Assembly (NCBI GenBank): GCA_026707665.1
Contig: JAPOWK010000117.1
Span: forward strand, 16,901 to 80,900
Source of the DNA: Chloroflexota bacterium
GTDB lineage: Bacteria > Chloroflexota > Anaerolineae > Aggregatilineales > Phototrophicaceae
Reading direction: 5' to 3'
DNA: 64,000 nucleotides
Under the pieces are notes generated by a model that was not told the DNA's origin, ran no database searches, and was given only the letters and a program-made list of their open reading frames with translations. Below, piece after piece: positions 19,530 through 25,017 of the stretch. Position 1 is the stretch's first letter. Every line of letters begins with the position of its first letter. Made by a program: the position numbers and the translations under genes.

Positions 19530-20857
19530 GACGCGCGGCTCTCCAACTGTCTGGCGGTCGAAAGCCAAAGATTGCAGGCAGACCGACACGGCAAGGTCGC
19601 GCCTGCGTCGCCGGGGGACCACCAGGCCGGCTCCCGCACACAATTTCCGCAGATCTTGTCCAATGTCATTTCAATCACGTTCTGTGGCAGGCGGTGAATG
19701 TCTTTGAACATGCCGTTTTGCCGCAGCCCGATATCCTCCAATGATTCACTCTTTAGCGCGCCGCGCTTATTCGCCGCCCAGTCGGCGACCAGACCAGGAT
19801 AAATGGTTTCGATCACGGCATGCGCGTCTTGGGCAGCATCCAGGTCTACACGCCAGCCGGCAGGCAAATCCGCGCTTGTCACCAAGGGACGGAAGGGATT
19901 CTCGCGTATGAATGCCCGCAATTCCGCCGGCGCCGAGAGCGCGATGCCGTCTGTTTCATTGTCTCGATGCCAGGCGCGCTCTTCATTTACCATCACTTGG
20001 CCGAATTGTAGAATTTTCTCTGATTCCAGTGCTTGTAGCAAGACACGTCTTCCGGCGCGGGGGAAATGGCGCCAGTTGCCTGTGCTGTCCTTCCGCTGAA
20101 GCGGCAGGCCGGTTTCGCGCGCCAGATCGAGAATGAGCTGGCAAATTGACTCGTCGGCGCCGACCGGTTCGCTGTAGTAGACCGAGCGATCTCTGACCCG
20201 ATTGACCGAATCCAATTCCGCGATGCCGAGCGCGCGTGGAATATCTTGGCGAACGTGCGAGCCGTCAGCCACGAAGTAGGGCAGCGCTATGATATGAGGA
20301 GCGCTTGTGCGTTCGTAGAGGCTGGGAATGTCTGGCTCATCATCGAGATAGACATCGACCGCCTCGCCGAGCCAATTCAATTCGCGAATGCGCTCAGCCT
20401 GATGCCGCGCGGTGTCCCGGCTTTGACGGTTGCGGCTGGTGCCATGACCGATGATGGCGGCGGCGGTTTGTTCGGGCGCCAATTCGTATCGATCTACGAT
20501 GGCGCGCAGTTGCCGTTCAACGATTGACTTCAGCTGAGGATGTTCCCCGAGCGGTCGCGTCAACTGAATCCGCTTGCCAGCGCGTAGCGTAGAATCGCCC
20601 GCCAGGCCAAACTCGGTCGGGATCACTTCGCTGGTGAAGTAGCCGCGCGCCGTGAAGACCGGTACGATGACGACATCGTCCGCTTCGACCGTGTCCAGAA
20701 CTTGTGAGAAGGGCGGCGCTTCCTTCCAGAAGCAAGCGGTGATCTCGTCGGCGACGCCCCAGCGGCGCAAGCGGTCGACGGCGCTCCAGACGATGCCGGC
20801 TGTATTGGCGCTGACATGGGAGCCGTGCCCGGCCAGGATCAGAGCGACTCCGCTCAC
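19526..20857 (-). CDS. Sirohydrochlorin chelatase (CbiX-like) fused to DR2241-type Fe-S domain
   Basis: VALILAGHGSH and AAAIIGHGTSRN CbiX repeats; C-terminal CGNCVREPAWWSPGDAGATLPCRSACNLW cysteine cluster; 4-nt overlaps with both neighbours. Confidence 0.85.
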   Translation of the reverse strand: MSGVALILAGHGSHVSANTAGIVWSAVDRLRRWGVADEITACFWKEAPPFSQVLDTVEADDVVIVPVFTARGYFTSEVIPTEFGLAGDSTLRAGKRIQLTRPLGEHPQLKSIVERQLRAIVDRYELAPEQTAAAIIGHGTSRNRQSRDTARHQAERIRELNWLGEAVDVYLDDEPDIPSLYERTSAPHIIALPYFVADGSHVRQDIPRALGIAELDSVNRVRDRSVYYSEPVGADESICQLILDLARETGLPLQRKDSTGNWRHFPRAGRRVLLQALESEKILQFGQVMVNEERAWHRDNETDGIALSAPAELRAFIRENPFRPLVTSADLPAGWRVDLDAAQDAHAVIETIYPGLVADWAANKRGALKSESLEDIGLRQNGMFKDIHRLPQNVIEMTLDKICGNCVREPAWWSPGDAGATLPCRSACNLWLSTARQLESRAS

Positions 20858-21504
20858 TCGGCTATTCCCTTCTGCACGATCTGCTGAAAGACAGAGCGCG
20901 CTTGCTCGGGCTTGCCGTCGCGAAGGAGGGCGAGCACATCCGAATTCAAGACATCTTGGTAAAGCGCTTGGCGAGCAGGCTGCGAGCCATTTACTTCCTG
21001 CGCGCACTCACGATAGGCGCCCAGCCAATCGGCGAGTATGGCGTATTCTTCACCGATGTCCTCAGCCAGCTTGGCTTTGAGCGCTCGCAGCAGAGCCGGC
21101 GATTTGCCGCCCGTGCTCAACGCGACAGTGAGCGGCGGCTTGTTAATCTGCGCCATGTTGCTAAAGTCGCTGTCCATGCTGCTGCCGTTCGCTACATTGC
21201 AGAGGGCGCGGATGCGATGCGCGTCTTGGGCAACTGTCTGATTGACGCGCTCGTCATCGGTCGCGGCGATGACCAGGACGGGCATGTAGTCGTTGAACAT
21301 GTCGCGCTGATATTTGGATTGGATCCAGACGAACGCGCCCTGGTCCAAGATTTCGCGCATAGCTGGCGCAATCTCCGGGCTGATCAGAAAAACGCGCGCG
21401 CCCGCTTGCAGCAGTCGCTCGACCTTGCGCGCCGCGACCCGCCCGCCGCCCACAACGGCGACCGGCTTGTCTTGCAAGTGCAGCATGATTGGATAGCCGC
21501 TCAT
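20854..21504 (-). CDS. Precorrin-2 dehydrogenase / sirohydrochlorin ferrochelatase (Met8p/SirC/CysG N-terminal type)
   Basis: PIMLHLQDKPVAVVGGGRVAARKVERLLQAGARVFLISPEI; start MSGYPIML at 21504, not the ORF-track start. Confidence 0.92.
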   Translation of the reverse strand: MSGYPIMLHLQDKPVAVVGGGRVAARKVERLLQAGARVFLISPEIAPAMREILDQGAFVWIQSKYQRDMFNDYMPVLVIAATDDERVNQTVAQDAHRIRALCNVANGSSMDSDFSNMAQINKPPLTVALSTGGKSPALLRALKAKLAEDIGEEYAILADWLGAYRECAQEVNGSQPARQALYQDVLNSDVLALLRDGKPEQARSVFQQIVQKGIAE

Positions 21505-21508
21505 TGAT

Positions 21509-22228
21509 TTATGCCTCGACGCTGCGTGCCGCGAGTGAAGGCAGCGGCAAGTGAATGCCACACTCGATCTTGCCCTGGTTCGCCCAGCGGCCGCTGCGGA
21601 GATGGTCGTCTTCGCCCGCGGCTTTGGTGCAGGTCCAGCAACCGATGCTGGGATAGCCAATATCGTGCAGGCGGTTGTAGGGCAGGTCGTGCTCATGAAT
21701 GTATTGCCAGACAGCTTCCTCGGTCCAGTTGGCGAAGGGCGCGATTTTGATGGATCGGTTGCGCGCGTCGCGGCTGATGATTGGCGTGGCAGCGCGCTGC
21801 GAAGACTGATCGCGGCGCACGCCAGTGACCCAGGCGTCAAAACCGACGAGGGCGTCGCGCAAGGGAATGGTCTTGCGGATATGGCAGCAGCGATCGGGGT
21901 TGCGCTCCCATAGGCGATCGCCATAGTCGCGGGCTTGCTGCGCCGGCGTCTGACGCGGTTTGATGCGCCGCAGATCAAGATTGAAGCGCGCTTCCAGATT
22001 GTCCATCAGGTCCTGCGTCTCGGGGAAGAGCAAGCCCGTATCCAGCGTCAGCACGGGCGTACGCGGCGCGATGCGCTGCATCATGTGCAGGGTCGCGATG
22101 CCGGTCACCTGAAAGCTGGTAACGATGGCGAGTTTGTCGCCGAATGAATCGCTCGCCCAGGTCAGAATCTCGAATGGGCTGGCTGTTTCAAATTGCTCGG
22201 CGTGTGACTGAATCTGTGAGTTTAGCAT
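21509..22228 (-). CDS. cysH: Assimilatory adenylyl-sulfate (APS) reductase, Fe-S type
   Basis: CCHIRKTIPL, GCWTCTKAAGEDDHLRSGRWANQGKIECGIH (CC...CxxC plus catalytic ECGIH). Confidence 0.93.
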   Translation of the reverse strand: MLNSQIQSHAEQFETASPFEILTWASDSFGDKLAIVTSFQVTGIATLHMMQRIAPRTPVLTLDTGLLFPETQDLMDNLEARFNLDLRRIKPRQTPAQQARDYGDRLWERNPDRCCHIRKTIPLRDALVGFDAWVTGVRRDQSSQRAATPIISRDARNRSIKIAPFANWTEEAVWQYIHEHDLPYNRLHDIGYPSIGCWTCTKAAGEDDHLRSGRWANQGKIECGIHLPLPSLAARSVEA

Positions 22229-22264
22229 TTCGTCTCCGGTCTGTAGGGAATTGCCGCATGAAGC

Positions 22265-22292
22265 AAAAAGCGCCTCGGATTATCCGAAGCGC
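22265..22292 (-). terminator. Intrinsic terminator/attenuator 1 (proximal to cysH)
   Basis: Minus strand GCGCTTCGGATAATCCGAGGCGCTTTTT: 11-bp stem (one G-U) plus T5, between leader ORF 1 and cysH. Confidence 0.9.
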
Positions 22293-22311
22293 CCCTGAGA
22301 TTCCTGAACGT

Positions 22312-22407
22312 TCACCGGCTACATCGCTGCGCCGGCCGCGGATAACCCTGCCGAATCGGCACGGTACAACAACAGTCCGGACAACAGCACATCATTTTTG
22401 CGATCAT
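22312..22407 (-). CDS. Cysteine-rich leader peptide 1: MIAKMMCCCPDCCCTVPIRQGYPRPAQRCSR
   Basis: ATG with GAGG 7 nt upstream (GAAGAGGAACTAGAATG); 7 Cys in 31 codons, CCCPDCCC; followed by terminator. Confidence 0.85.
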   Translation of the reverse strand: MIAKMMCCCPDCCCTVPIRQGYPRPAQRCSR

Positions 22408-22434
22408 TCTAGTTCCTCTTCAGCGCGCTACAAT

Positions 22435-22460
22435 AAAAAAGCCCCGTGTCGTCACGGGGC
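22435..22460 (-). terminator. Intrinsic terminator/attenuator 2 (distal)
   Basis: Minus strand GCCCCGTGACGACACGGGGCTTTTTT: perfect 8-bp stem, 4-nt loop, T6. Confidence 0.93.
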
Positions 22461-22494
22461 ATCTCGATTCTGCTTGCTGCGCGTCAATCACGAT

Positions 22495-22587
22495 CTAGCA
22501 AAGCGCCACCGTACGACTCTCGGTCGAACCTGTCTGACAACAACACGGACAGCAGCACAAGCAAGTCACAAATGAAATCTTACTCAT
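22495..22587 (-). CDS. Cysteine-rich leader peptide 2: MSKISFVTCLCCCPCCCQTGSTESRTVALC
   Basis: ATG start about 10 nt after predicted TSS; 8 Cys in 30 codons, CLCCCPCCC; followed by terminator. Confidence 0.85.
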   Translation of the reverse strand: MSKISFVTCLCCCPCCCQTGSTESRTVALC

Positions 22588-22604
22588 TTCCAACGCTGAA
22601 CAAG

Positions 22605-22633
22605 AGCTTAGCGCAAACTTCAATATCTGTCAA
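22605..22633 (-). promoter_or_regulatory. Sigma70-like promoter of the cys leader/operon
   Basis: Minus strand TTGACA (22633-22628), 17-nt spacer, TAAGCT (22610-22605). Confidence 0.75.
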
Positions 22634-22682
22634 GCGGTTGCTGATAAATCGCTGGAATTGACCAAATTCGTGCGCCGACCGC

Positions 22683-23450
22683 TTAGCTGCTGCCCATTCT
22701 AAGCGCGCCATCGAGGCGGATCGTCTCGCCGTTGAGCATTTCGTTCTCGACGATTTGCTGCGCCAGTTGAGCGTATTCGGCCGGCTGGCCCAATCGCTGG
22801 GGGAAGGGCATTTGGGCGCTTAGGGACGCGCGCAGGTCGTCCGGCAGGCTGCCGAGCAAGGGCGTATCAAAGATGCCCGGCGCGATGGTGCAGACGCGAA
22901 TCCCATAGCGAGCCAGATCGCGGGCTATCGGCAGAGTCATGCCGACAATGCCGCCCTTGGAAGCGGCGTAAGCAGCTTGCCCGATTTGGCCTTCGTAAGC
23001 GGCGACGGAAGCGGTGTTGACGATGACACCACGCTCGCCGGAGGGCAGGGGCGCATTCTCCGCCATGACCGCGCTCGCCAGCCGGATAACATTAAAGGTC
23101 CCAATCAGGTTGATGCCTATGACCGTCGCAAATGCCTCCAGGGGATGCGGTCCGCGGCTGCTGGTCGTGCGCAGGGCGATGCCGACGCCGGCGCAGTTGA
23201 TAAGGACGTTGAGCCCGCCAAACTCGGCGGCAGTGTAGTCAAGCGCTGCTTGTATGGCGTCCGCGCTGGTTACATCGGCCTGGATGAAGCGCGCCCGCTC
23301 GCCCAATTCGGCGCTGAGAGCTTGGCTTTTTTCCTCATCGCGGTCGAGAATCAGCACGCGCGCGCCGCAATCAATGAAGCGTTTTGCCGTGCCCGCGCCC
23401 AGGCCGGACGCGCCACCGGTGATTAGCGCGACGACATCTTGCATCTTCAT
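22683..23450 (-). CDS. SDR family oxidoreductase (3-hydroxyacyl-CoA dehydrogenase type II-like)
   Basis: [57 protein letters not shown]. Confidence 0.9.
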
Positions 23451-23573
23451 TCGCGTAACCTACGTAAGACGTACCAAGTTAGCATTGCTAGACTCGTGCG
23501 ATAGATCGAAAAGCAGCATTGTACAGTGTAGGGCTTGTCCGGTAATAGCGAAAGCCGGTATCCGGCACGATTT

Positions 23574-23613
23574 CACCCCATCCCCGGCCCTTCCCCAGTG
23601 AACTTGGGAAGGG
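23574..23613. repeat. Hairpin repeat, family A
   Basis: CACCCCATCCCCGGCCCTTCCCCAGTGAACTTGGGAAGGG. Confidence 0.8.
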
Positions 23614-23690
23614 TGACTCGACGCCGGTAGTGGTAATTCGGGTGCTACAACTGTGAGCCAGGTGGGCTAGCTTTTTCGCGGCAAATGCGT

Positions 23691-23738
23691 TCCCCCTTCC
23701 CTAGCTCGCTGGGGAAGGGGGTTGGGGGGATGGGGTGG
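23691..23738. repeat. Hairpin repeat, family A (inverted orientation)
   Basis: TCCCCCTTCCCTAGCTCGCTGGGGAAGGGGGTTGGGGGGATGGGGTGG. Confidence 0.8.
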
Positions 23739-23748
23739 ATTTCCGTCG

Positions 23749-25017
23749 CTAACGACCGTTGCTGCCATGCAAGCTGTTGAGGAATTCCTCGTTGGTGTCG
23801 TAGAGCCGGAAGTTATGCAGCAGTTGATCGGTGGCGCCGGCGATGCCTTCCGGCTGTTCGGCCAGATGCGACCACATGCGGCGCATCGTATAAACGCGCT
23901 GCAAAACATCGGGACCCAGCAGCAATTCCTCGCGCCGAGTGGAGGACTGCTCGATATCAAAGGCGGGGAAGATTCGCCGTTCCTGTAGCTTGCGGCTGAG
24001 GTGCAACTCCATATTGCCCGTGCCTTTGAATTCTTCATAAATCACATCGTCCATTTTGCTGCCGGTATTTACCAGGCAGGTGGCGACGATGGTGAGGCTG
24101 CCGCCTTCTTCGACATTGCGGGCGGCGCCGAAAAGCCGCTTCGGCGGATGAATGGCTGATGGATCGAGACCGCCGGAAAGCGTGCGACCGCTGGTGGGCA
24201 CGACGAGGTTGTAAGCGCGCGCCAGCCGGGTGACGCTATCCAGCATCATCACGACATGACGCTTGACTTCGACCAGGCGCTTGGCTCGCTCCAGCGCCAT
24301 TTCAGCGACGCGTACGTGATGATGGACCGGGTCGTCGAATGTCGAGGCGATGACCTCGGCGTCGACCGAGCGATCCATGTCGGTGACCTCTTCCGGGCGC
24401 TCGCCGATCAGCGCCATCATGAGATGCACATCGGGATAGTTGGTGCTGATGGCGTTGGCGACGTCTTTGAGCACGGTTGTCTTGCCCGCTTTCGGTGGCG
24501 AGACGATCAAGCCGCGCTGGCCGAAGCCGATCGGCGCGATGAGATTGAGCATGCGCGTGGACATGATGCGCGGGAGCGTCTCGAGATCAAAGCGGACTTC
24601 AGGGAAGATCGGCGTGAGCCGCTCGAAATTGGGACGTTGCTTGACTTCATGCGGATTCAGCCCGTTGACCGAGTCCACGCGGAGCAGACCGTAATAGCGT
24701 TCCGTGTCCTTTGGCGGGCGCACTTGCCCGATGACCATGTCGCCGGTGCGCAAGCCAAACTTCTTGATTTGCGTCTGGCTGACGTAGATGTCATTTTTGC
24801 CCGGGAGATAACCTTCGGCGCGCAGGAATCCGATGCCGTCGTCGACGACTTCCAAGATGCCGCCGCGCAGCTGGTGCCCGCGCCGCTCGGCGTCTTGACG
24901 GAGCAGGCCAATGATCAGGTCCTGCTTTTTTAGCCGGCTGAAGCGGGGCACGTGATGGTTGCGCGCCATTGAGCGCAATTCGGGCAGCGTTTTTGATTCA
25001 AGGTTCGCGATATTCAT
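23749..25017 (-). CDS. rho: Transcription termination factor Rho
   Basis: Rho N-term [65 protein letters not shown]. Confidence 0.95.

Follow-up and report, generated by a model that had tools for sequence, protein, structure and literature searches.

Two predicted cysteine-sensing gates in series upstream of cysH in Chloroflexota

Upstream of the genes that make cysteine, a Chloroflexota bacterium and its relatives carry two consecutive Cys-rich mini-ORFs, each followed by a transcription stop signal that should only be overridden when cysteine runs short. We propose that these are two ribosome-mediated transcription attenuators in series, both reading charged tRNA-Cys. Single gates of this kind are known, however, a conserved pair reading the same amino acid appears not to have been described. 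The window analysed here is a 64,000-nucleotide stretch of contig JAPOWK010000117.1 (assembly GCA_026707665.1), and all features discussed are on its minus strand.

The cysH leader and its operon

A preliminary description of the window, made from sequence alone, had reported a promoter, two poly-Cys leader ORFs with 15 Cys in 61 codons and two terminators in front of cysH, and this observation is correct in every item and far beyond chance. A promoter-like sequence, TTGACA-N17-TAAGCT, lies at 22633-22605 (TTGACA at 22633-22628 and TAAGCT at 22610-22605), with transcription expected to start near 22598. The -10 box is weak and a 9-of-12 promoter scan listed no promoter in the region, although TTGACA and TAnnCT are conserved in the genus alignment. 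Leader 1 runs from an ATG at 22587 to a TAG at 22495 and encodes MSKISFVTCLCCCPCCCQTGSTESRTVALC*, with 8 Cys in 30 codons. It is followed by intrinsic terminator 1 (GCCCCGTGACGACACGGGGC + T6) at 22460-22435, the hairpin occupying 22460-22441. Leader 2 runs from an ATG at 22407 to a TGA at 22312, encodes MIAKMMCCCPDCCCTVPIRQGYPRPAQRCSR* with 7 Cys in 31 codons, and has an AGAGGA Shine-Dalgarno-like sequence upstream. Intrinsic terminator 2 (GCGCTTCGGATAATCCGAGGCGC + T5) follows at 22292-22265, with its hairpin at 22292-22270.

We scanned both strands of the window for short ORFs with at least four Cys in eight codons followed by a terminator, and this returned these two leaders and nothing else. 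In the whole genome a search for CCxCC-type sites gave 64, and of the 30 inspected only the leader 1 site itself is followed by such a terminator. One contig of this genome (C158, 9277-9453) carries a repeated TGYTGYGGN stretch, which would be Cys-Cys-Gly if read in that frame, although reading frame and gene were not examined. No poly-Cys leader was found upstream of the single ATP-sulfurylase gene, and a query with a sulfate-binding protein gave only a weak hit. Rfam gave no match at or above the gathering score in positions 20000-25000 of the window or in eight related loci, so that no described riboswitch, T-box or known leader family was recovered.

The genes downstream were confirmed by profile HMM. 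The first is cysH, (phospho)adenylyl-sulfate reductase, at 22228-21509 (NF002537, TIGR00434, PF01507), followed by a siroheme synthase N-terminal domain/precorrin-2 dehydrogenase at 21507-20854 (TIGR01470), a CbiX-type chelatase fused to DR2241 and Fer4_23 domains at 21007-19526 (PF01903, PF18069, PF18009; ORF start uncertain), a uroporphyrinogen-III C-methyltransferase at 19643-18750 (TIGR01469; ORF start uncertain) and a sulfite/nitrite reductase (NIR_SIR) family protein at 18629-16383 (PF01077, PF03460). Together they form the route from activated sulfate to sulfide, and hence to cysteine. A Cys-rich short ORF upstream of a Cys supply operon, as in the mycobacterial poly-Cys leaders, is present here.

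Conservation in the genus and beyond

Absence of the Cys runs or terminators from relatives had been named in advance as an outcome that would count against an attenuator, and the comparison came out the other way. CysH was found in 33 of 34 same-genus genomes, and in every one whose leader was read (33 loci including the window; cysH 63-92% identical) both Cys-rich ORFs and both terminators are present. The Cys run of leader 1 (TGTTGTTGT) and its ESRxVAxC-coding segment are conserved across the genus, and TGTTGTTGT and AGTCGTxCGG are among its most conserved bases, although the start codons of leader 1 are not conserved. In two loci (L013 and L020) leader 2 alternates Cys with Thr or Pro rather than running CCC. 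The close relatives are Chloroflexi, Chloroflexota or Anaerolineae bacterium MAGs, and several isolate codes suggest sponge or coral sources, which is our inference.

To look beyond the genus we surveyed cysH upstream regions across family, order and class (genomes are given as G numbers and loci as L numbers). The tandem layout was found in G036, G096, G097, G064, G062, G071, G074, G109, G107, G106, G105 and G121 of the same family, in G141 (family f8) and in G148 (family f7). The cysH copy behind the tandem leader in G036 (L069) has one in-frame TGA, and whether this is an assembly error or a pseudogene was not resolved. As cysH is not always the first gene of its operon, we looked 2-9 kb further upstream in 20 genomes where cysH had no leader, and found leaders at the operon start in several of them. 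G100, G035, G108, G142 and G049 carry a tandem pair in front of the first operon gene, which is assimilatory sulfite reductase in G035 and G142 by HMM, and in G108 and G049 by the same N-terminal sequence read by eye, whereas in G100 it is a NIR_SIR gene like that of the window. With the window's own genus, these 19 further genomes bring the tandem pairs to 14 genera of three families.

Other lineages have a single version, namely G116, G117, G042, G146, G147, G088, G127 and G080, and the class-level genomes G447, G400 and G203. In G400 and G203 (L163 and L164) the single leader, about 270 nt upstream of cysH, contains MCACMC / MCVCMC and lies much further (about 145 nt) from its terminator, and it may sense Cys and Met or be a different design. 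G070 has one leader followed by two terminators. In G049 (L196) and G043 (L195) a single copy precedes a sulfate ABC transporter substrate-binding gene, which, with the tandem pair of G049, suggests a small Cys-attenuator regulon. In four loci of the class-level family f45 (L158, L168, L176 and L179), a conserved ORF about 310-330 nt upstream of cysH ends in a Ser/Cys run (SSSSSCLCTTSSCCCSCCC) without a recognisable intrinsic terminator, possibly a Ser plus Cys leader working by another mechanism.

We also considered whether the two gates arose by a recent common duplication. This is supported in G148 (L142), where both terminators share the same core hairpin, evidence of duplication or gene conversion of the attenuator, but in the window the two gates share no sequence beyond the Cys core. 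A CysH tree shows that the trait is clustered (14 changes against 34.3 shuffled), but it shows no more than this, as it did not include the leaders found at operon starts and its counts of gains and losses overstate the changes.

Complementarity between leaders and terminators

Mutually exclusive antiterminators, which the preliminary description had not identified, exist at both positions, where a stretch just 3' of the Cys codons can pair with the 5' arm and loop of its own terminator. The helices concerned include GGTTATCC:GGATAATCC and GTCGTxCGG:CCG..ACGAC. At gate 2 the 5' arm GGGTTATCCG (22348-22339, codons Q-GYP of leader 2) is complementary to CGGATAATCC (22286-22277), which spans the distal 5' arm, loop and first bases of the 3' arm of terminator 2. 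Over 33 sequences 97.0% of cells are paired (shuffled mean 94.1%, 0 of 500 as high), three pairs have double changes, and sliding the partner gives only 24-54%. In L034 the leader codon TAT becomes TGT (Tyr to Cys) and the terminator loop TAA becomes CAA, keeping the pair, and four sequences carry CG in place of GU at another pair. The pairs of terminator 2 itself are conserved with changes. A small hairpin, P1 (GCCG-ATT-CGGC, 22360-22350), between the Cys codons and antiterminator 2 also has covarying pairs, including GC to CG in 4 sequences, whereas hairpin P3 (CCGGC...GCCGG, 22335-22315), which overlaps the leader 2 stop region, is 98.8% paired but with only one-sided changes. At gate 1 GTCGTACGGTGGC (22517-22505, codons ESRTVA of leader 1) pairs with GCCCCGTGACGAC (22460-22448), overlapping the terminator 1 5' arm and loop. 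Here 87% of cells are paired against 31-57% when slid, but covariation does not exceed that of shuffles, and thus antiterminator 1 rests on complementarity.

For 32 attenuators from 20 genomes, the duplex between each leader's post-Cys segment and its own terminator 5' half averages -20.0 kcal/mol, while random reassignment averages -15.2 (sd 0.49), with 0 of 20,000 permutations as low. Several matched duplexes are nevertheless no better than swapped ones (G107 leader 2, G148 leader 2, G447 and G033a leader 1). G033a, G036a and G096 keep antiterminators of other sequence. The distance from the last clustered Cys codon to the terminator stem is 69 nt (sd 6) across lineages, while leader and terminator sequences vary freely.

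We next modelled the effect of ribosome position by folding. With a ribosome stalled on the Cys run, the terminator 5' arm is sequestered in the genus with probability 0.80 (gate 1) and 0.87 (gate 2), against 0.37 and 0.21 with the ribosome at the stop codon and 0.54 and 0.61 with dinucleotide-shuffled leaders. Outside the genus the corresponding values are 0.74, 0.30 and 0.52, so base composition does not explain the result. Moving the ribosome codon by codon, the antiterminator survives for every Cys codon and begins to fail about 9-12 nt past the last one. The contrast with the stop position is partly trivial, since less RNA is free, but the location of the break just past the Cys run is not. 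At gate 2 the antiterminator arm lies 24 nt upstream of the stop codon, so a terminating ribosome must block it sterically rather than cover it. With no ribosome at all the window's gates give 0.85 and 0.51, values that do not clearly predict termination of untranslated RNA, as a trp-type protector hairpin would impose, and that leave the default state of the leader undecided. At equilibrium the terminators win, so the switch must be kinetic, and folding of the whole leader was only mildly better than shuffles (z -1.6), as expected for a switch with competing folds.

Codon choice also sets the leaders apart. Leader Cys codons in the genus are 263 TGT to 111 TGC (70% TGT), whereas the cysH genes of the same organisms use 10 TGT to 148 TGC (6%; Fisher P about 1e-46), and leaders outside the genus are 84-87% TGT. 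Rare-codon use fits a sensor of codon-reading speed, and a modelling paper stresses codon choice and the fraction of regulatory codons as determinants of sensitivity (PMC1183508), although that TGT is read more slowly here is inference.

Interpretation and comparison with known systems

The reading of this leader as a tandem Cys-responsive attenuator is supported, and we hold it with high confidence. In this view a ribosome translates each Cys-rich leader behind RNA polymerase. If Cys-tRNA is plentiful, it would run past the Cys codons and cover, or sit between, the arms of the antiterminator helix, so that the intrinsic terminator forms and transcription stops. If Cys-tRNA is scarce, the ribosome would stall on the Cys codons, the segment a few codons downstream would pair with the 5' arm and loop of the terminator, and polymerase would pass. 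The cysH, siroheme and sulfite reductase genes would be made only if polymerase passes both gates, and expression would be roughly the product of two readthrough probabilities, giving lower leakage and a steeper response than one gate. What the sequences themselves show is the two ORFs, the two terminators, an antiterminator complementary to each gate's own terminator, their conservation, compensatory changes at gate 2, the fixed spacing and the rare-codon use, whereas translation, stalling, transcription start, termination, the response to Cys and the multiplicative output are inferred, as no transcript, ribosome-profiling or reporter data were available and a rise in expression on Cys limitation was not measured.

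Other explanations were weighed and all appear unlikely. The two gates may have different thresholds or senses, gate 2 for example reporting general translation or another amino acid, and act as a two-input device like mgtCBR, and their geometries do differ, with spacing of about 76 nt for gate 1 and about 71 nt for gate 2 in the genus and the stop codon lying differently relative to the antiterminator arm. However, in both leaders Cys is the only clustered residue in every lineage, and from codon content, not expression, the gates are not inferred to read different signals. It is similarly unlikely that only one gate works and the other is a degenerate relic or plain terminator. Antiterminator 1 lacks significant covariation and some lineages (G116, G117a, G042, G146 and G147) manage with one leader, but both gates keep Cys run, terminator and complementary arm in 33 of 33 genus genomes and 13 other genera, gate 1 beats shuffled leaders in the stall model, and a relic would not survive this divergence.

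An action mainly on translation of the next ORF, by coupling or Shine-Dalgarno sequestration, as proposed for mycobacterial Cys leaders, is also improbable. Terminator 1 does lie just upstream of leader 2, and the mycobacterial leaders lack terminators (PMC1262725) and are described as translation attenuators (PMC13236596), but here both hairpins are G+C-rich with T5-T6 tails, recur in every lineage with a leader pair, and do not contain the cysH Shine-Dalgarno region, which is downstream of terminator 2. Least likely is that the Cys-rich peptides themselves act and the RNA features are incidental. CCCPxCCC-like clusters could bind metals, persulfide or other sulfur species, or act in redox chemistry, and the operon handles sulfur. 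Between genera, however, only the Cys cluster is kept while length, start and tail all differ, within the genus the conserved tail residues (ESRxV, GYP) are those coding for antiterminator arms, and the TGT preference and fixed Cys-to-terminator distance fit codon-reading, not peptide chemistry.

What seems undescribed is the conserved pair reading the same amino acid. Literature searches found no such pair and no leader-peptide attenuator from Chloroflexota, although they covered open-access papers only, so that absence there is not proof. We consider it more likely than not that this is a homologous tandem ribosome-mediated attenuator, conserved across an order-wide set of Chloroflexota, used as a multiplicative (pseudo-cooperative) gate on sulfate assimilation and, as far as the papers searched show, the first described. 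Attenuation has been a model of gene control for decades, but its known natural units sit singly or, in mgtCBR, read different signals. A conserved same-signal pair makes it directly testable what a second gate buys (lower leak, steeper response or wider range) when the sensor is a race between ribosome and polymerase, and the set of natural single and tandem versions allows the two designs to be compared. It would also show how this phylum controls sulfate assimilation, and the systematic use of the rare TGT codon is a further design rule that can be tested.

Compared with the classical trp, his and ilv leaders, the element has in common a short leader ORF rich in codons for the end product, a terminator with a competing antiterminator and, by inference, control of the biosynthetic operon, but it has two complete units in series for one amino acid, the amino acid is Cys, the antiterminator arms lie inside the leader ORFs, and no protector hairpin enforcing termination without translation was found. 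The poly-Cys leader ORFs of mycobacteria (Canestrari et al. 2020, cited in PMC13236596 and PMC9094748; predicted in Seliverstov et al. 2005, PMC1262725) are likewise short ORFs with Cys runs upstream of cys operons and are reportedly Cys-responsive, but they are without conserved intrinsic terminators (PMC1262725), whereas two are conserved here, they are described as translation attenuation (PMC13236596), and tandem units are not reported in the open-access sources consulted. Two refinements of the preliminary description, which had cited single poly-Cys leaders from mycobacteria, are needed. Cys-codon attenuators with an intrinsic terminator are published for cysS in Rhodobacterales, where the uORFC-8-2 motif has adjacent Cys codons and ribosome-mediated attenuation is proposed (PMC8632094), although this is a single unit with two Cys codons, mostly UGC, controlling Cys-tRNA synthetase in another phylum. 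Tandem ribosome-controlled attenuators as such have a precedent in Salmonella mgtCBR, called a singular example, where two ORF-based attenuators in one leader respond to different signals (ATP and proline) and do not resemble intrinsic terminators (PMC3641672). Pseudo-cooperative tandem riboswitches, such as those for TPP, place two independent transcription gates for the same signal in series and are expected to give a steeper dose response (PMC9481103). The cysH leader would be their translational counterpart, in that those sense a ligand by aptamer whereas here the sensor is a translating ribosome.
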